Made by a program: the position numbers and the translations under genes
Source: Thermoplasmata archaeon
GTDB taxonomy: Archaea; Thermoplasmatota; Thermoplasmata; Lutacidiplasmatales; UBA184
Length of the DNA: 64,000 nt
Direction: 5' to 3'
Assembly: GCA_022750115.1 (NCBI GenBank)
Contig: JAKIWI010000005.1
Span: 1 to 64,000, forward strand
Notes under the pieces: model-generated
Told to the model about the DNA's origin: nothing
Database searches by the model: none
Seen by the model: the letters and a program-made list of their open reading frames with translations, nothing else
Shown: piece after piece, positions 1 through 51,271 of the stretch
Layout of the letters: the number at the start of each line of letters is the position of its first letter
How positions within the stretch are numbered: position 1 is the stretch's first letter

Positions 1-826
1 CGGCGTACGCCCAGTAGCACTCCATCATCGTGAACTCGGGCGTGTGGGTCGAATCCAGGTCCTCGTTGCGGAACACCGGCCCGACCTCGAACACGCGCTC
101 GAGGCCGCCGACGAGGAGGCGCTTGAGATGGAGTTCGAGCGCGATCCTCAGTCGCAGCTCGTCGTTCAGGTAGTTGGAGCGCGTCACGAACGGTCGGGCC
201 GCGGCGCCGCTCGCGACGGGCGACAACACGCCGGTCTCGACCTCGAGGAAGCCGCGTTCGGTGAGGAACGTCCGGAGCCCGGAGAGGAGCTGCGACCGGG
301 CCCGGAAGCGGGCGCGCGACTCCGACGATGCGAACAGGTCGACGTGGCGATGGCGGATTCGCGCCTCCTCGTCTTGGAGTCCGTGCCATTTCTCGGGCGG
401 GGGGCGGAGCGCCTTCGCGAGGAGTTCGACGCGCGTGACGCGGAGCGACGGTTCCCCGCGCTTCGTCACCATCGGATGACCGACGGCGCCGACGATGTCG
501 CCGGGGTCGAGGTCGTCGATGAGGGAGCGGTATCCGGCCTCCCCGAGCTCGTCAATGCGGGCGAACAGTTGGATCGACCCGTCGCGGTCGCGCAGGTCGA
601 AGAAGGCGCTCTTCCCGTGCTGGCGGATGCTCCCCAGCCGGCCGGCGACCGCGAAGGTACGGCTCGGGTCGTCCGCACCCGGGGCGAGCGGCTTGGCGGC
701 GGCAACGACCTTCGCCGTCGGGACGACGTCGGCGAAGCGGTATGGGTAGGGCGTGCGTCCGGAGGAGCGGACCCGCTCGACCTTTCGCCGTCGCTCCTCG
801 ATGAGCGGCGACTCCTCGTCGGCCAT
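1..826 (-). CDS. lysS: Lysyl-tRNA synthetase, class II (C-terminal part outside the window)
   Basis: Charges tRNA-Lys with lysine in the cytoplasm. The visible 275 residues hold the N-terminal OB-fold anticodon-binding domain (about residues 55-150, with GRLGSIRQHGKSAFFDLRD) and the start of the class II catalytic domain. Family hallmarks visible are EKWHGLQDEEARIRHRHVDL, the motif 2 region with VFEVGPVFRNEDLDSTHTPE, and FTMMECYWAYA at the edge. The ATG at 826 was chosen because the OB-fold begins soon after it. The frame runs off the window start, so roughly the last 45% of a normal protein of about 500 residues is missing. The next gene upstream (stop at 874) lies 47 bases away on the same strand, so the two may be co-transcribed. 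Archaea carry either a class I or a class II LysRS; this is clearly class II. Confidence 0.95.
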   Translation of the reverse strand, partial: MADEESPLIEERRRKVERVRSSGRTPYPYRFADVVPTAKVVAAAKPLAPGADDPSRTFAVAGRLGSIRQHGKSAFFDLRDRDGSIQLFARIDELGEAGYRSLIDDLDPGDIVGAVGHPMVTKRGEPSLRVTRVELLAKALRPPPEKWHGLQDEEARIRHRHVDLFASSESRARFRARSQLLSGLRTFLTERGFLEVETGVLSPVASGAAARPFVTRSNYLNDELRLRIALELHLKRLLVGGLERVFEVGPVFRNEDLDSTHTPEFTMMECYWAYA

Positions 827-43262: not shown

Positions 43263-43271
43263 CGTATTTAT
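43263..43271 (+). promoter_or_regulatory. TATA box of the HTH/ferritin-like regulator gene
   Basis: CGTATTTAT lies about 50 bases before ATG 43320, so transcription should begin near 43295 and the in-frame GTG at 43278 cannot be the start. Confidence 0.55.
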
Positions 43272-43281
43272 CACACTGTGA
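43271..43281. promoter_or_regulatory. Candidate operator TCACA-C-TGTGA in the divergent promoter region
   Basis: A perfect five-base dyad around a central C, overlapping the end of the regulator TATA box. A further TGTGA lies at 43248-43252, next to the ZIP TATA box, 23 bases away. Both promoters could therefore be covered by the HTH protein encoded alongside. The symmetry is seen; binding is inferred. Confidence 0.5.
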
Positions 43282-43319
43282 ACGTCCGTCCGCCTCGAGG
43301 CGGGGAGGCCCGGACCAGC

Positions 43320-44247: not shown

Positions 44248-45036
44248 ATGAGGGGTGGCGAAGATGTCGCCACGGTCCCACGAGGGGCCGGCTCGATGGG
44301 GCTACCGAAACCGTCGCTGGAGGAGTTGGTCCAATCGACCGACTCCGGCCGCTCGAAGGGGTCCGCGAAGGCGGTCCGCGTCGTCGCGGTCGCCGACCTA
44401 CCGACCCGCTTCGGCGAGTTCGACGTCGCGGCGTTCCACAGCCCCGCCGACGGAAAGGACCACGCCGCGCTCGTTCTCGGCGAGGTCGCCGACAAGGAGC
44501 GAGTGCCGGTGCGCCTCCATTCGGAGTGTCTCACGGGCGATGCGTTCGGGTCGCTGCGGTGCGACTGCCGCGAGCAGCTCGAGCTCGCGATGTCCGAGAT
44601 CCAGCGCCGCGGGACCGGCGTCCTCCTCTACCTCCGACAGGAGGGACGTGGCATCGGCCTCGAGGCGAAGATCAAGGCCTACCGGCTCCAGGAGCTCGGC
44701 CTCGACACGATCGAGGCGAACGAGGCGCTTGGGTTCCGTGCCGACGAGCGGGACTACGCCGTCGCGGCCGCGATGCTGCGCGTGCTGAAGGTCCGCTCCA
44801 TCCTCTTGATGTCGAACAACCCGGCGAAGATCGCCGACCTCAAGGTCCACGGGACCCGGATCGCCGGGCGGATCCCGCTCGAGGTCTCTCCGAACCCGTT
44901 CAACGCTCGCTACCTCGAGACCAAGCGGGTGAGGGCCGGCCACCTCCTGACGAAGCCCCCCTGGCCCCCGATCATGGAGCAGCTCGACTGCCTGCACGCG
45001 GCCCCCTCGTCCGGCGGGGAGCCGTCGGAAGAATGA
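44248..45036 (+). CDS. ribA: GTP cyclohydrolase II
   Basis: Opens GTP to 2,5-diamino-6-ribosylamino-pyrimidinone 5'-phosphate, the first step of riboflavin synthesis. The zinc-binding site is HSECLTGDAFGSLRCDCREQ (three cysteines), followed by YLRQEGRGIGLEAKIKAY and DTIEANEALGFRADERDY, all intact. The product is 262 residues from ATG 44248; ATG 44296 (MGLPKPSLEEL) is an alternative that removes an unconserved lead-in. Archaea more often use the unrelated ArfA (GTP cyclohydrolase III), so this bacterial-type enzyme is notable. It follows the HTH/ferritin-like gene by 109 bases on the same strand; riboflavin demand by the several flavoproteins in this window (ThyX, NDH-2-like, DAO-type) makes sense of it. 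Confidence 0.94.
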   Translation: MRGGEDVATVPRGAGSMGLPKPSLEELVQSTDSGRSKGSAKAVRVVAVADLPTRFGEFDVAAFHSPADGKDHAALVLGEVADKERVPVRLHSECLTGDAFGSLRCDCREQLELAMSEIQRRGTGVLLYLRQEGRGIGLEAKIKAYRLQELGLDTIEANEALGFRADERDYAVAAAMLRVLKVRSILLMSNNPAKIADLKVHGTRIAGRIPLEVSPNPFNARYLETKRVRAGHLLTKPPWPPIMEQLDCLHAAPSSGGEPSEE

Positions 45037-45153
45037 CCGTGCTGGGGACCCCGACCCGGGTCTCCCTGCCGTTCACGTTACCCCCGAGAGCGCTTGCTGG
45101 GCCCCGCCGCACCGGGTAGCGTGCCCGATTCGGCCGCCTCGTACTGGGATTCC

Positions 45154-45972
45154 ATGCCGCCGTCCCCGCACCGCGGTGTCGTCTGGGGCGTCCTCGCGCC
45201 CAACGCACCCAACCTGATCGACCCGGCGGTGCTGGGAGTGGGCGGCGAGGAGACGGTGGCCTCGCTGCGCGGGCTCGACCTGGAACATCGCATTCGACCC
45301 GACGTTCTCGTCGTAGCCTCTCCCCATTGGCGGACCCGCGGCTCGTTCCTGGTCGACACGAGCCCCCGCCCGCGTTTCATCGAGGATTTCACGGGGTTTC
45401 CGCCCGCGATGTACGGTCACCGGTACGAGCCGCCGGGCGAGCCCGAGTTCGGACGTGCGTTGGTCGCGGCCGGCCGCGCGGCGGGGGTCGCCGTGCAGGA
45501 GAGCCAGGAGTGGGGCCTCGACCACGGCGCTTGGTCCGCCCTCCACCCGCTGGCGCCTTCCGCTCGCATCCCGGTGGTCGCCCTTTCGACCACGGACGCC
45601 AGCGCCGCCGACCACGTGCGGTGGGGCGAGCAGGTCGCTCGGGCGAGCGAGGCCTCGGGGAAATCGGTCGGAATCGTCGCGACCGGCCAGATCCTCCACA
45701 ACTTCTCGAAGTTCTCGTTCGGCCCCGAGGGAGCGCGTTGGCCCGAGGGGGAAGCGATCGAGGCCGAGGTCATCGAGCGGATGCTCCGCTCCGACTGGGA
45801 GTCGGTCGCCGGACTGGACCGGAAGAAGTGGCGGGAGGCGCAGCCCGAGGGGGAGCTCGGAACCTATTTCGTGCTCGCGGGAGCGGTCGGACGGCGACTT
45901 CGCCCGCACCTCGTCAGCAACGAGCGCTGCTTCGGAAGCGCTGGCATGACCGTCATCGAGTTCTCCGGCTGA
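45154..45972 (+). CDS. Class III extradiol dioxygenase (LigB/DODA type)
   Basis: Non-heme Fe(II) extradiol ring-cleavage family. Ligand-bearing motifs are visible: VLAPNAPNLIDP near the N-terminus (where canonical members carry a metal-binding His-x-His), VVASPHWRTRG, MYGHRYEPPGEPE and WGLDHGAWSALHPL with the conserved His-Gly-x-W. ATGQILHN and ERCFGSAGM fill the later positions. The first His is thus missing or shifted in the N-terminal loop. With start ATG 45154 the product has 272 residues; GTG 45121 and TTG 45094 are in-frame alternatives. The substrate could be a catechol or protocatechuate-like ring; MEMO1-type proteins share the fold but lack activity. Confidence 0.8.
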   Translation: MPPSPHRGVVWGVLAPNAPNLIDPAVLGVGGEETVASLRGLDLEHRIRPDVLVVASPHWRTRGSFLVDTSPRPRFIEDFTGFPPAMYGHRYEPPGEPEFGRALVAAGRAAGVAVQESQEWGLDHGAWSALHPLAPSARIPVVALSTTDASAADHVRWGEQVARASEASGKSVGIVATGQILHNFSKFSFGPEGARWPEGEAIEAEVIERMLRSDWESVAGLDRKKWREAQPEGELGTYFVLAGAVGRRLRPHLVSNERCFGSAGMTVIEFSG

Positions 45973-46099
45973 GGGAGCCCCGGCCGGGGCCGTCAGGGTG
46001 AACCCGGTGGGTCGCGACATGCGCCGTCGCCCGGACCCGCCGGGAGGATCGAGGCGGGTCCGCAGGGCCGGCGCGCGGGACCGGCCCGTGGGCTGAGGT

Positions 46100-46150
46100 G
46101 TATGTAGCCGGGTGCCTTCGCGGGACCGCCGCCCCTGGCGGTATGGGAGA
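46100..46150 (+). promoter_or_regulatory. Conserved upstream element of the first secreted paralogue
   Basis: TATA-like GTATGTAG (46100-46107), inverted repeat ACCGCC-gcccct-GGCGGT (46125-46142) and GGGAGA (46145-46150) precede ATG 46157. The same order and spacing recur before the second paralogue. The inverted repeat falls at the predicted transcription start, so it may be an operator or a leader hairpin. Confidence 0.5.
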
Positions 46151-46156
46151 ACCGAG

Positions 46157-47038
46157 ATGCGCGAATTGGTCCGAGATTCGATTCCGAACACGATGCGTCG
46201 ACACCAAGGCCACTGGCTGGGCGCAATGGCCCTGGGAACCTTCGGGCTTGTGGCGCTGATGGCGCTCATCCTGCCCGTGAGCGCGGCCGTTGCCCCGATG
46301 ACGGTCATGCAGACGATCAAGATCACCGCTCCCTACACCGGCGCGGTCGTGAGCACGAGCTCGTCGGTCTCGGCGAGCGGCTGCGGCACCTCGTCGCTCG
46401 TCACCCCTGCGTTCTTCCACTGGCGCACCGGTGACGGCGGCTTCTCGGGCTCCGCGTCGTCGCACACCTGCGCGACGAGCGCTTCGGGCTACTCCTCCAC
46501 CTACCAGTCGATCTACGCCGAGGTCCCCCTGGTCGTCCTCTCGGGCATGAACCACATCACCGCGAGCTGGTCGATCAAGGCCGACGGCGGGAGCTCGCTT
46601 CATGTCGGCGCCTGCGCGATGCCTTCGGGGAACAACTCGTCGTTCTCGGAGTGCTACGCGAGCGCCTCCAGCAGCCTGTATGCCTACAGCTACGTCATCG
46701 ACGCCACCAACGGGTCGTACTTCCTCCCGACGGGGAACGGCTCGTGGGGCGTGTCGAGCGGCGCGAGTTACACGCAGTACTGCTACTCGGGCAACTGTTC
46801 GACGTACTCCTCCGGCGCGCCGGGAACGTTCTCGGTCCACGCGCCAGCGGTCTGGCACTTCAAGGCGCCCGGGCTCGTGCCCAGCCACTCGTACTTCCTC
46901 GAGTTCTCGTTCTACGGACAGGAGTACGCTGACGAGGGAGCCTACGGTGCGACGCTCGGCCACTCGTACGGCAGCGCGTGGCTCAACTTCGGGACCTTCG
47001 GGAACGGAGCGAAGCTCAACTCGATCGTGATCACCTAG
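46157..47038 (+). CDS. Secreted or anchored beta-rich protein, tandem paralogue A
   Basis: Family not recognised. From ATG 46157 (293 residues) the N-terminus RRHQGHWLGAMALGTFGLVALMALILPVSAAV is a signal or anchor helix. The exported part is almost all beta-strand, Ser/Thr/Gly-rich, with Asn-x-Ser/Thr sites (GNNSSFS, TNGSYF, GNGSW, GNCST) and eight or so cysteines, and ends YGSAWLNFGTFGNGAKLNSIVIT. It shares about half its residues with paralogue B 241 bases downstream; shared blocks are ITAPYTG, TPAFFHWRTG / TPPFFHWRTG, SSHTCAT, VPSGNNS-like, SGAPGTFS, HAPAVWHFKAPGL and AWLNFGTFG. No catalytic signature is visible. It may be a surface-coat or adhesion module. Confidence 0.75.
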   Translation: MRELVRDSIPNTMRRHQGHWLGAMALGTFGLVALMALILPVSAAVAPMTVMQTIKITAPYTGAVVSTSSSVSASGCGTSSLVTPAFFHWRTGDGGFSGSASSHTCATSASGYSSTYQSIYAEVPLVVLSGMNHITASWSIKADGGSSLHVGACAMPSGNNSSFSECYASASSSLYAYSYVIDATNGSYFLPTGNGSWGVSSGASYTQYCYSGNCSTYSSGAPGTFSVHAPAVWHFKAPGLVPSHSYFLEFSFYGQEYADEGAYGATLGHSYGSAWLNFGTFGNGAKLNSIVIT

Positions 47039-47088
47039 GTCCGGCGCGTCGGACCACTCGCCCCCGAGGACCGTTCGGGTCTCCGGGG
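47038..47088. terminator. GC-rich hairpins after paralogue A
   Basis: GGTCCG-gcgcgt-CGGACC (47038-47055) begins at the last base of the stop codon, and a second imperfect stem led by CGCCCCCGAGGACC and closed by GGGTCTCCGGGGG follows (47059-47088). The CGCCCCCGA segment begins 21 bases after the stop, as its counterpart does 20 bases after paralogue B. A terminator or RNA-stability role is inferred. Confidence 0.4.
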
Positions 47089-47222
47089 GTCGACAACCCT
47101 TTCCCAGCGTGGGCCGGGGTGCAGCGGTTTCGAGGCAACCGACGAGCGGGGGCGGTGTCCGAGGGGCGACACGAACGTCGCACGGAGAACCCTCGCGTCC
47201 ACCGCCGACCGCGGTTGGAAGC

Positions 47223-47273
47223 GTATCTAGGCGGTTGCCTTCGCGAGACTGCCGCCTCGGGCGGTGAGGGAGA
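47223..47273 (+). promoter_or_regulatory. Conserved upstream element of the second secreted paralogue
   Basis: TATA-like GTATCTAG (47223-47230), inverted repeat ACTGCC-gcctcg-GGCGGT (47248-47265) and GGGAGA (47268-47273) precede ATG 47280. Compared with paralogue A, one arm changed C to T but still pairs (T-G), which hints that pairing is maintained. Confidence 0.5.
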
Positions 47274-47279
47274 ACTGAG

Positions 47280-48161
47280 ATGCCCGCATCGCGCAGCGAA
47301 CCGATTCCGAGAACGATGCGGCGGCGCCGGGCGCACTGGCTCAGCGCGATGGCCACGGGGAGCGTCGGGCTCGTGACGTTGATTGCGCTCCTTCTGCCCG
47401 TGACAGCGGCGGTCTCCCCGTTGACCGTGGTGCAGACGATCCGAATCACGGCGCCCTACACGGGTGCCACGACGTACGTCATGTCGTCCGTTTACAAGAA
47501 CGGCTGCAGTACCTCCACCATCGTGACCCCTCCGTTCTTCCACTGGCGGACCGGTGTCGCGGGATACTCCGGTACTGCCTCTTCCCACACCTGCGCGACG
47601 AACTCATCGGGGTCGGCCTCGACGTTCGAGTCGATCTACACGGTGATCCCGCTGGTCGTCCTCCCGGGCACGGACCACATCACGCTGAGCTGGTCGATCC
47701 AGGTCGATGGCGGGAACTCCCTCCACGTCGGCCGCTGCTCGGTCCCGTCGGGGAACAACTCGTTCTTCTACTGCTCCGCGACCGCGTCCGTCAGCGTTGG
47801 CGTCCTCGCAGACGTCTTCGACGGCACGAACGGCTCGGTCTTTTTCCCGAGCGGGAACGGCTCGTGGATGGGAGTAACGAGCGCCACGTCCGACTTCGAG
47901 GTCTGCAACTCGGGGAACTGCTCGATGTCGACCTCGGGCGCGCCGGGAACGTTCTCGTTCCACGGGCCCGCGGTCTGGCACATCAAGGCACCCGGGCTCG
48001 TGACGAGCCACACGTACTACCTGTCCTTCGGATTCTACTCGTACGAGTTCGTCAGCGAGGGAGGCTACCAGGCGACGATCAGCCACTCGGGCGGGAACGC
48101 TTGGCTCAACTTCGGCACGTTTGGCGACGGAGCGATGCTCCACTCGATCCTGATCACCTAA
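47280..48161 (+). CDS. Secreted or anchored beta-rich protein, tandem paralogue B
   Basis: Also 293 residues and colinear with paralogue A throughout, so the pair arose by tandem duplication that included the promoter and 3' hairpin. The signal/anchor helix is RRRRAHWLSAMATGSVGLVTLIALLLPVTAAV with a basic start. Differences cluster in the strands between residues 70-90 and 165-195, where B has SVSVGVLADVFDGTNGSVFFPSG against A's SSLYAYSYVIDATNGSYFLPTG. Cysteines are mostly kept in place. The function is unknown; surface or secreted roles are likely from the N-terminus. Confidence 0.75.
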   Translation: MPASRSEPIPRTMRRRRAHWLSAMATGSVGLVTLIALLLPVTAAVSPLTVVQTIRITAPYTGATTYVMSSVYKNGCSTSTIVTPPFFHWRTGVAGYSGTASSHTCATNSSGSASTFESIYTVIPLVVLPGTDHITLSWSIQVDGGNSLHVGRCSVPSGNNSFFYCSATASVSVGVLADVFDGTNGSVFFPSGNGSWMGVTSATSDFEVCNSGNCSMSTSGAPGTFSFHGPAVWHIKAPGLVTSHTYYLSFGFYSYEFVSEGGYQATISHSGGNAWLNFGTFGDGAMLHSILIT

Positions 48162-48180
48162 GTCGCACGAGGTTGCCCAG

Positions 48181-48213
48181 CGCCCCCGAAGCCCCGTCGG
48201 CGCTTCGGGGGCG
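48181..48213. terminator. Strong GC hairpin between convergent genes
   Basis: CGCCCCCGAAGC and GCTTCGGGGGCG form a perfect 12-base stem with a nine-base loop, 20 bases after the stop of paralogue B and 131 bases from the stop of the convergent kelch gene. It could end or protect transcripts; no T-run follows. Confidence 0.5.
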
Positions 48214-48343
48214 GATTGCCCTTACCCGTTGAGGGCGAGAGGGGCGGGTTCGCGTCGGCCGAATTCGAGATTTCAATCCCGCCCGAGCGAGGTCTCTCGC
48301 GGTGCCCATCGGCCAGGCAGGGTCGCCTGCCACGTCCGGCGGT

Positions 48344-51271
48344 TCAGGGATTGGAGGTCGATTCCTCTTCGGTCCAGGCTTCTGGCGCCGCCTTCGCGGG
48401 CTTCGCCGCCGGGGGCTTCCGACGCATCAGGAGGAAGGCGATCGCGGCGACGACCACGATCGCGAGCACCGCGAGCGCTCCGTACAGCTCGAGCGGGGCG
48501 AGCCCCAGGACCGAGGTCGACGCCTTCGAGGTCACGTTGACGTAGGTGTCGCCCGAGACGGAGACCCCGAGGACGTCCTTCACGACGACGTGGACGACGA
48601 AGTGACCGGTGCCGGTCGCCGTGCAACTGAGCGAGGACTGGTTGGCCGACACGCATCCCGTCGGCAGTCCGGAGTAGGTGAACGTGTACGGCTTCGTGCC
48701 GTTGGTCGCGTTCGCCTGGATCTGGAACGTGTCCCCGATCGTCGCTGGGTTCGCCGTCGCCTGGAAGCTGGAGAGCGTCGGGTCGGGGTGGACCACCATC
48801 GTGCCGGCGCTCGTGACTAGCACCCCCGACGCGTCCTTGACGCTGACCGAGACCTGGTAGCTGGCAGGAGTCCGGGGCGAGCAGGCGAGCGTCCCATCGA
48901 TCGTCGAGGCAGCGCACCCGGCGGGCAGGCCGCGGTACGTGTAGGTGAACGGCGCCGTGCCACCGGACGGCGTGGCGTTGATCATGACCGTCCCGCCGAC
49001 GTCGATCGTCCCGGGCGTCATCGTGACCGCGTTGAGCGTCTCGGCCGGGTTGACGGTGAACGAGAGCGTCGCGTTGACGATGAAACCCACGTTGTCGGTC
49101 ACTTGGGCGGTCACGGAGAACGACCCCGCCACCTGCGGGGTGCACGACGTCGCCGAGGTGTTCGAGGGCGTGCAGCCGGCCGGGAGGTTCAGGTACTGGT
49201 AGGTCAGCGTGCCGGTACCCCCCGTGGCGTTCGCCCAGAGGTGGACGAGGGTGCCCACGTCGAAGGCGCCCGGGGAGGCGGCCGTCGAGGCGAACGTCGG
49301 GTCGGCGTTGACGACCAACGGCACCGAGGCCGCCGAGTACCATCCGAACCGGTCGGTGGCGTTCACGACCACGAGGCTGTTGTAGATAGCACTGGGAGCG
49401 CACGTGAGCGTCGAGCTGTTCGTCGTGGCGCAGCCGGCCGGGAGTCCCGAGTAGAAGTAGGTGATCGGGTCCGTCCCCCCGGTGAGGGTCGCGCGGATCG
49501 TCACCGACTGGCCGACATCGAGCGCGGTCGGGAGCGCCACGATCGAGGTGACGTTCGGCTTCGGGTTGACGGTGACCGAGAGGTTGTCGTAGACGTGGAA
49601 CGCGGCCGTGTCCGTGACGGTCACTTGGACGGTGAACACGCCCGCGGTCGTCGGCACGCAGGTGAGGTTCGCGGTGTTGACCGTGCCACAGCCCGTCGGG
49701 AGACCCGCGTAGTGGTACGAGTAGGTGCCGGTCCCACCCGTGGCGACGGTGCGCAGCGTCGCCGCCGAGCCGACGGTGACGTTCGGGTAGTTGACGGAGT
49801 ACTGCGTGATTCCCGGGTCCGCGCTCACGACCACCGTCGTGTTCTCGAACACCGGCGACCCGGAGGAATCGTTCAATTTCACGACGACCGGGAACGTTCC
49901 GGTCGTGGTCGGCGTGCACGCGACGGTCGAGACGTTGCCGGCCGAACAGCCGGTCGGCAGCGAGGTGTAGTTGTACGACACGTAGCTCGCGTAGGCGATC
50001 GGGGTCGCGTTGATGTTCGTGCTCTGGCCGAGGTCGATCGCGCTGGGCGATGCCGAGACCTTACCGAGGATGGAAGGCCCGAGAACGTAGGTCCGGTTGC
50101 TGTAGGAGAGGTTCGCCCACTGCCCGCCGAACATCAGGACGTAGCCGTCGCCCGCGTCGAAGGTCATTTCGAGGTAGGCGACGGCCGTCGGCGAGTGGGC
50201 CAGCGACGTGGTGAGGGAGGTCCACGACGCGTTGGTGAAGTTCCACGTGTCGGCGAGCGGGACGTTCGAGGCCGACGACGACGAGCCGCCGAACAGCAGG
50301 AGCGTCTTCGCGATTGGTGAGTAGGTGATCCCGTAGTAGACGCGGGCCGCCGGATGCGAGGTGGGGGCCAACGCGGCCCAGGTCAGGTTTTGGTACTTCC
50401 AGGTCGTTGAGTCCGGGCAGGTGGACGTGCAGCCGCCGAACAGGACGGTGTAGTTGTCAACCGGGTCGTACGCCATCGAGGCGCGGAAGCGCCCCGGCGG
50501 GCTGCCGGTGACGTTCAACTTGGTCCAGAACCCGCCCTTGAACTCCCACGTATCGGAGTAGGTGACCGAGAGTGCGTTGGTCCCGCCGAACATGACAACG
50601 TAGCCGTCGCCGGCGTCGTAGGCCATCGAGGCCCGCCACCGGGCCCCGGGGGTCTGGTTCGTCGAGCCCGAGATGTTCGCCCAGTTGCCGTGGGTGTAGG
50701 TCCACGTGTCGTTGTAGTAGATCCCGGTTCCGGAGTAGCCGCCGAACAGGACCCCTTCATGGTCCGCCGGGTCCCAGACGAAGGTGGCGGCGTAGCGACC
50801 CGCCGGCCCGGAGCTCGAGGAGAGCGCCCACTGGCCGTTGGCGAACGTCCAGGTGTCGGAGTCGACGCCGCTGCTGCCGTACCCGCCGAACAGGACGACG
50901 TAGTTGTCCTCCGGGTCGTAGGTCATCGCGGAGAGCCAGCGTCCCGACGGGCCGGCTCCCGCCACGCTCGTGATGTCCGTCCACGATTTCGGGTTGACTC
51001 CGCCGACAGCAGGGCGGGCGAGCGGTGCCTTTGCTGCGCCACCGTAGTGCCCGCCCGACAAGCTCGCGGCGGCTACGGTCAGAGGCGAGGCGGCGTGCGG
51101 GCTCGGGGCCACGCCGCCGGATCGAGCGGTGGGAACGGCGGCGGAACCCCGTCCGAACGCGAGGTTGGAAGGTACGAGGAAGATCACCACGATCGCGAGG
51201 ACGGCGAGGAGTCGAACGATCGATCGGGTGGGAATTCGTCGGGCAGTCCAGCAGTTCTCGACGGGGCCCAT
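48344..51271 (-). CDS. Kelch-repeat and Ig-like surface protein with C-terminal anchor, 975 aa
   Basis: Second member of the family. A signal peptide covers about residues 16-40. Residues about 95-400 hold six kelch blades of the form YDPEDNYVVLFGG ... DTWTFANGQW. Residues about 405-925 hold six Ig-like modules, each with DVGQSVTI / GG-T-PITY-YSGLPAGC / C-PS pattern (for example LTGGTDPITYFYSGLPAGC). A single span near 935-957 is followed by a charged tail KAAPEAWTEEESTSNP. Many Asn-x-Ser/Thr sites suggest glycosylation. A TATA-like CAAGATAG at about 51291-51298 precedes ATG 51271 by 20-27 bases. The modules resemble one another, so intragenic recombination is possible. Confidence 0.85.
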   Translation of the reverse strand: MGPVENCWTARRIPTRSIVRLLAVLAIVVIFLVPSNLAFGRGSAAVPTARSGGVAPSPHAASPLTVAAASLSGGHYGGAAKAPLARPAVGGVNPKSWTDITSVAGAGPSGRWLSAMTYDPEDNYVVLFGGYGSSGVDSDTWTFANGQWALSSSSGPAGRYAATFVWDPADHEGVLFGGYSGTGIYYNDTWTYTHGNWANISGSTNQTPGARWRASMAYDAGDGYVVMFGGTNALSVTYSDTWEFKGGFWTKLNVTGSPPGRFRASMAYDPVDNYTVLFGGCTSTCPDSTTWKYQNLTWAALAPTSHPAARVYYGITYSPIAKTLLLFGGSSSSASNVPLADTWNFTNASWTSLTTSLAHSPTAVAYLEMTFDAGDGYVLMFGGQWANLSYSNRTYVLGPSILGKVSASPSAIDLGQSTNINATPIAYASYVSYNYTSLPTGCSAGNVSTVACTPTTTGTFPVVVKLNDSSGSPVFENTTVVVSADPGITQYSVNYPNVTVGSAATLRTVATGGTGTYSYHYAGLPTGCGTVNTANLTCVPTTAGVFTVQVTVTDTAAFHVYDNLSVTVNPKPNVTSIVALPTALDVGQSVTIRATLTGGTDPITYFYSGLPAGCATTNSSTLTCAPSAIYNSLVVVNATDRFGWYSAASVPLVVNADPTFASTAASPGAFDVGTLVHLWANATGGTGTLTYQYLNLPAGCTPSNTSATSCTPQVAGSFSVTAQVTDNVGFIVNATLSFTVNPAETLNAVTMTPGTIDVGGTVMINATPSGGTAPFTYTYRGLPAGCAASTIDGTLACSPRTPASYQVSVSVKDASGVLVTSAGTMVVHPDPTLSSFQATANPATIGDTFQIQANATNGTKPYTFTYSGLPTGCVSANQSSLSCTATGTGHFVVHVVVKDVLGVSVSGDTYVNVTSKASTSVLGLAPLELYGALAVLAIVVVAAIAFLLMRRKPPAAKPAKAAPEAWTEEESTSNP

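Follow-up and report, generated by a model that had tools for sequence, protein, structure and literature searches.

In bacteria, 5'-terminal stem-loops act as stabilisers of the ompA, papA and B. subtilis aprE mRNAs (PMC3997798). In archaea, a purine start after a pyrimidine is described as the general rule for transcription, and terminators are described as lacking hairpins (PMC7289017). Among secreted proteins, Bd1399 of Bdellovibrio is a disulfide-locked beta sandwich related to DUF4360 (PMC10792529). The archaeal order Lutacidiplasmatales has been described in PMC9287336, the main text of which contains none of the terms 'secret', 'S-layer' and 'adhesion'.

We analysed a tandem gene pair (copy 1, W1; copy 2, W2) of an acid-soil Lutacidiplasmatales archaeon within a window of 64,000 nucleotides, the whole stretch of DNA under study. 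Like the ompA, papA and aprE mRNAs, the pair has a stem at or near the (here predicted) 5' end, a ribosome site behind it and an exported protein as the product; unlike them, W1 and W2 have an archaeal TATA promoter, and a stabilising role here would be by analogy. Compared with archaeal TATA/BRE promoters, W1 and W2 share the TATA-like box and the predicted purine start after a pyrimidine, whereas many genes here are, by their TATA spacing, probably leaderless and members of this family are mostly long-leadered.

The tandem gene pair and its protein family

The first-pass annotation of the window had described two colinear 293-aa secreted proteins of an unrecognised family, lying head to tail. 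Both coordinates and paralogy were confirmed (Table 1). The two proteins are 64% identical over 288 aa and their coding parts 77% identical, and each N terminus, judged by eye from the sequence, has the basic start, hydrophobic core and A-x-A-like end of a signal peptide. A GTG start at 46112 is mechanically possible for W1; W2 cannot be extended to such a GTG, so the ATG at 46157 is the better W1 start. The nearest relatives are encoded at two named loci, L034 (Thermoplasmata MAG AcS13-54) and L035 (Candidatus Lutacidiplasma silvani). In a comparison that included the orthologues, W1 and W2 shared 63% identity, more than they share with L034 or L035 (49 and 43%), which places the duplication recently within the window's lineage; judged by sequence, the pair is a lineage-specific tandem duplication of one family member.

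Table 1. Features of the tandem locus (positions in the window)
Feature	Position	Strand	Basis or remark
Presumed GTP cyclohydrolase II-like gene (ribA-like)	44296..45036	+	conserved upstream neighbour
LigB-type dioxygenase, between ribA-like gene and W1	45094..45972	+	Pfam
TATA-like box GTATGTAG of W1	46100..46107	+	sequence; centre 53.5 bases before ATG
W1 inverted repeat, predicted 5'-terminal mRNA hairpin GCCGCC-CCT-GGCGGT	46128..46142	+	L034 and L035 carry this stem, also at TATA centre +24.5
Shine-Dalgarno-like GGGAGA, W1	46145..46150	+	sequence
W1 ORF, secreted protein of 293 aa with signal peptide and six conserved cysteines; beta sandwich predicted	46157..47038	+	
Two stem-loops after W1 stop	47038-47055 and 47058-47093	+	z -2.34 for 47036-47110
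CAACCCTTTCC, putative 3'-end/terminator element of W1	47094..47104	+	
TATA-like box GTATCTAG of W2	47223..47230	+	sequence
W2 inverted repeat, predicted 5'-terminal mRNA hairpin GCCGCC-TCG-GGCGGT	47251..47265	+	
Shine-Dalgarno-like GGGAGA, W2	47268..47273	+	sequence
W2 ORF, secreted 293-aa paralogue	47280..48161	+	
12-bp GC-rich stem-loop after W2 stop	48181..48213	+	z -2.82 for 48159-48230
Exported Kelch + Ig-like repeat protein, C-terminal membrane span	48344..51271	-	Pfam; same neighbour in L034, L035

L034 and L035 each hold a single copy in the window's slot, with ZIP-like, HTH-like and ribA-like genes on one side and the Kelch/Ig-like gene on the other, and the window differs from them by the duplicate copy and by the LigB gene, which is absent from L034 and L035. 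These neighbour names are partly our assumption, Pfam backing only the ZIP, LigB and Kelch genes of the window. The exported Kelch/Ig-like protein is thus encoded beside the family gene in each of the three species and is a possible functional partner. Before the adjacent HTH-like gene (window 43265-43303), TATTTA followed by CCGCCTCGAGGCGG shows a similar TATA-to-hairpin geometry, not above that expected from composition.

The claim of an unrecognised secreted family was borne out: W1 and W2 had no match in Pfam, NCBIfam, PHROGs, PDB sequences or phage records, the sole PDB sequence row being at chance level (E 0.34), and Pfam and NCBIfam gave 0 families for all 15 of the 15 members scanned. 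Six cysteines are invariant across the 15 aligned members. A first scan of named genomes with one protein as the query returned no match. With a single sequence as the query, members were recovered from 17 of the 106 genomes of the order, and with the 15-row profile from 27 of the 106 (8 of the 39 good genomes and 3 of the 9 genera), while in a phylum-wide sample of 389 genomes 2 matched, both from one genus. As far as searched, then, the family appears confined to Lutacidiplasmatales archaea (Thermoplasmatota). Among the papers retrieved on archaeal leader hairpins and leaderless Thermoplasmata, none describes it in its title or the opening of its abstract. Copy number is very uneven, with at least 23 matches each in genomes G033 and G056, 18 each in G051 and G079, and in the own genome (G000; 2,118,250 bases in 27 contigs) 9 match rows, two of them fragments of one frame. 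Adjacent pairs recur, e.g. at G033:C34, G056:C43 and G079:C73, which makes a tandem arrangement typical of this family. A cluster at G056:C9:7011-21941 contains at least four members, several with long similar leaders that run TCTAAATACC ... GGAACGAAAC and then ATG, with a closing helix showing paired changes.

For the exported domain we obtained five AlphaFold2 models from a four-row alignment. The models disagreed; the best (mean pLDDT 77, compared with 39-60 for the others; residues 1-48 unreliable) is an all-beta sandwich, so that a fold was obtained in one moderate-confidence model of the five. The best structural match of this model was Bd1399 (8okh_B; Z 10.7, rmsd 4.2, 154 residues, 6% identity). 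The jelly rolls of CBM6, 16, 22, 27, 36 and 61 followed with Z of about 7.3-8.3 over 108-145 residues, a level often reached by models that have no clear match; carbohydrate-binding modules together with other jelly rolls lay at Z 7-9 (up to 8.8, close to that common level). W1 and W2 thus resemble Bd1399 and DUF4360 in being secreted and modelled, at moderate confidence, as a beta sandwich, and differ in having no Pfam match and six conserved cysteines instead of four. The likeness to carbohydrate-binding modules consists of the jelly-roll-type Z of the same moderate-confidence model. The model weakly suggests an exported binding module, possibly glycan- or surface-binding, and the conserved cysteines may form disulfides.

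Promoters and hairpins at the predicted 5' ends

To place the transcription start, TATA spacing was calibrated on gene-called stretches (549 genes of the own genome and 250 genes of G029). TATA-like boxes were most frequent some 25-31 bases ahead of the start codon, a spacing that marks leaderless mRNA, and a second, smaller group stood at 50-54. The centres in the leaderless-type genes lay mostly 24.5-31 bases before the start codon, which suggests that many genes of these genomes are leaderless, and with this group as a ruler transcription is predicted to start at a distance of about 25 bases from the centre of the TATA box. W1 and W2 fall into the 50-54 group (centre at -53.5). The stem in W1, W2, L034 and L035 opens with a G that follows C or T and has the same distance, 24.5 bases, to the TATA centre in all four. 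The calibrated spacing therefore puts the predicted +1 at the hairpin base and gives no indication of a start far downstream of the repeat.

The spacing of TATA-like box, inverted repeat, GGGAGA and ATG is identical in W1 and W2, as had been annotated. The region -58..-1 is 81% identical between the copies compared with 77% in the coding parts, so the likeness of the promoters matches the duplication background and the pair alone is weak evidence. Upstream identity to the L035 orthologue is 64-66%, below the median of 71% for 87 orthologue pairs, and the promoter is thus not unusually conserved.

The repeat itself had been annotated as ACCGCC-N6-GGCGGT at 46125-46142 and ACTGCC-N6-GGCGGT at 47248-47265. 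It is present upstream of both genes, and the better register is the GCCGCC-3-GGCGGT of Table 1, which the orthologues keep. The annotated arm change between the copies does keep pairing as a T.G wobble in RNA, but breaks the palindrome as DNA. Across W1, W2, L034 and L035 the stem has the consensus G[CT]CGC[CT] / [GA]GCG[GA][CT], with loops of 3, 3, 4 and 5. Pair 2 is C-G in three sequences and T-A in L034, pair 6 is C-G, T-G or T-A, and pair 1 is G-T or G-C; two of the six pairs are therefore changed on both sides, with G.T wobbles (pair 1 in W1 and W2, pair 6 in L035) as intermediates. All 24 of 24 pair cells (6 pairs, 4 sequences) are standard in a structure-fitted comparison, an alignment choice that favours the hairpin because it emerges only with the arms aligned by structure; RNAalifold on the unedited MAFFT alignment returned another, weak structure in place of the hairpin. 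Under a simple null, the chance of keeping all pairs is about 0.01 for the 5 substitutions between W2 and L034 and about 0.09 for the 2 substitutions to L035. The sequences thus point to a hairpin kept with paired changes, and the G.T pairs and varying loop argue for an RNA stem rather than a DNA operator. Both syntenic orthologues carry the repeat; in more distant members its place at the predicted 5' end is taken by different leader structures.

Against dinucleotide shuffles the hairpin was not exceptional in W1 (z -0.75), W2 (z -0.57) or, likewise, L035, and the L034 leader reached z -2.87. A stem of such a kind occurred at a given place in 7.7% of the intergenic positions sampled. With at most 1 mismatch, ACYGCC-N6-GGCGGT had 6 matches in the window compared with 2.6 expected, and 13 of 100 shuffles reached 6. 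In the own genome, the TATA-plus-spacer pattern had no match beyond W1 and W2 apart from one hit with 3 mismatches, and the repeat pattern had 5 hits compared with 3 for the reversed control; further genome copies above control, which the first-pass annotation had proposed to look for, were therefore not found. The repeat as the motif or operator of a regulon was rejected in this search, since the same site was not found at other promoters of the own genome. Rfam detected only two tRNAs in the window.

Leader structure and 3' ends across the family

Leaders, taken from TATA centre +22 to the start codon, were scored in two sets of family members. The first comprised 22 members; 8 of 28 relative loci (L014, L015, L018, L021, L024, L028, L029 and L031) were left out because the start was unclear, the locus overlapped a neighbour or it lay close to a contig end. 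Mean z was -1.05 (SE 0.19; 19 of 22 negative), compared with -0.10 for the upstream control. The second set consisted of 60 loci from profile matches, 52 of them scorable and 8 without a leader-type TATA, and gave a mean z of -0.73 (SE 0.19; 33 of 52 negative) compared with -0.21 in 223 control leaders; over a fixed window of -60..-1, z was -0.58 compared with -0.14 in 332 genes. The difference held in the subset with stronger TATA boxes (44 members and 95 controls, P = 0.008), and pairing at TATA+26..31 was 0.74 in 60 members (four orthologues excluded) compared with 0.58 in 84 controls (P = 1e-5) and 0.59 in 16 secreted-type control genes, although these P values overstate the independent evidence because the members are related and the genomes differ (leader excess -1.38 in G056, n = 17; -0.26 in G033, n = 16). 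These results indicate that leaders of the family exceed those of the controls in structure by a modest but significant margin. Shine-Dalgarno segments of the family were on average open (pairing 0.25 at -9..-4 compared with about 0.6 in controls), a figure biased, as is that for the Shine-Dalgarno segments themselves, by the choice of the 60 start codons with a bonus for such segments.

A hairpin peak at TATA+32, seen in 15 genes including W1 and W2, was considered as a rule for leadered genes in general and was dropped when a larger set was scored against shuffles (mean z +0.13 in 18 own genes; -0.80 in 8 genes of G029, which include the orthologue itself); leadered genes as a class thus lack the excess of the family. 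Separately, the leader of a presumed gyrase B-like gene of 637 aa (G000:C1:81771, +, in locus L043; G029:C16:99334) forms almost the same hairpin in the two species, TCGCCGAGAAATCGGCGG behind TTATAAT, with z about -3.1 in each; this hairpin is a candidate gyrB leader element. The leader of a 133-aa gene (G029:C16:11695, +) holds an 8-bp hairpin CCGGCCCGAACCGGGCCGG with z -3.4.

At the 3' ends, CGCCCCCGA stands about 20 bases past each stop (47059, 48181) at the head of a stem-loop. The annotated 3' hairpins held up in that the stem-loops beat shuffles (z -2.3 and -2.8); CGCCCCCGA as a motif by itself was not enriched (8 compared with 5.5 expected) and was dropped. The 60 bases after the stop had a mean z of -0.84 in 22 members compared with -0.23 in 258 own genes. 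In 6 of 22 members, compared with 6 of 796 other genes, CAACCYYTTYC stood no more than 100 bases past the stop. Behind the W1 stem-loops comes CAACCCTTTCC, and W2 has a degenerate form only. Neither TTTTT nor CYTTTYC was clearly enriched after stops. A bacterial-type intrinsic terminator was rejected, no T run longer than 3 standing behind either 3' stem-loop. As archaeal terminators are described as lacking hairpins (PMC7289017), the stem-loops of W1 and W2 may protect ends rather than terminate.

Among the 6 non-family genes with CAACCYYTTYC is, in both species, a gene that is presumably a proteasome beta subunit (G000:C1:154501-155172, -; G029:C16:177455-178126, -), with CAACCCCTTCC about 21-23 bases past the stop. 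This recurrence suggests a general 3'-end signal of well-expressed genes.

Interpretation of the two units

Our preferred reading, to which we give about an even chance, is that W1 and W2 are two separately promoted units for exported proteins whose mRNAs start and end in hairpins, most likely for stability. Each copy would be a complete transcription unit of TATA box, short leader, free Shine-Dalgarno-like sequence, gene and 3' stem-loops. A GC-rich hairpin, starting at the first nucleotide of the leader or beside it, would protect the 5' end of the mRNA and still keep the ribosome site accessible. Behind the gene, the stem-loop, in W1 together with CAACCCTTTCC, would define or protect the 3' end. 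The outcome would be a long-lived monocistronic mRNA per copy and steady production of the exported protein. The start site, the action at the RNA level and any role in stability or dosage, the last of which had been proposed as regulated dosage of a surface component, are what we infer from these features; for the dosage being regulated we found no support.

The strongest competitor, unlikely in our judgement but still to be taken seriously, is that the repeat is incidental: a leader of 70% GC often folds a short hairpin, and the copies would share theirs by duplication. The shuffle scores of W1, W2 and L035 (z about -0.6 to -0.75), the 7.7% background and the promoter identity at the duplication level all agree with this, but chance does not readily account for a stem that two further species keep at a constant TATA offset despite double changes, for the score of L034 or for the family-wide leader excess. 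A dyad at the start site is also a usual place for an archaeal repressor site, and the repeat could be a DNA operator over the transcription start, on which a dimeric repressor would control the gene pair. The dyad overlaps the predicted start and, in the originally annotated register, is a perfect palindrome in W1 and nearly so in W2. We nevertheless regard an operator as improbable, more so than an incidental repeat: the wobbles break the DNA palindrome and spare the RNA stem, the half-site spacing varies (3/4/5), the arm sequence differs between orthologues, and the genome holds no other good copy beyond the level of the reversed control.

Regulation of translation by the leader, in which temperature, a protein or a ligand would act on the structure so as to sequester or free the ribosome site, seems very unlikely for this pair. 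It draws on seven long-leader paralogues, in which the closing helix found by RNAalifold has double changes in 4 of 7 pairs and ends beside a purine-rich Shine-Dalgarno-like segment; GGGAGA of W1 and W2, however, lies outside the main hairpin, the family's segments are on average open (with the start-choice bias given above), and Rfam matched nothing in the window but tRNAs. No regulator or ligand is indicated for W1 and W2.

Protected mRNA ends at W1 and W2 might extend to a family-wide mRNA architecture, with a structured leader from +1, an open Shine-Dalgarno segment and CAACCYYTTYC. We put forward such end protection, as an archaeal family trait convergent with ompA, papA and aprE, only tentatively, as somewhat unlikely. 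Archaeal mRNA decay differs from the bacterial in its 5'-end pathways, and we know of no transcript-end data for Lutacidiplasmatales. If the proposal is true, archaea too would protect mRNAs for exported proteins by a 5'-terminal hairpin, a claim that is testable. The analysis also marks out a secreted family, undescribed before and expanded several times over, in a soil order that is uncultivated, and it provides CAACCYYTTYC as a candidate 3'-end signal for Lutacidiplasmatales.
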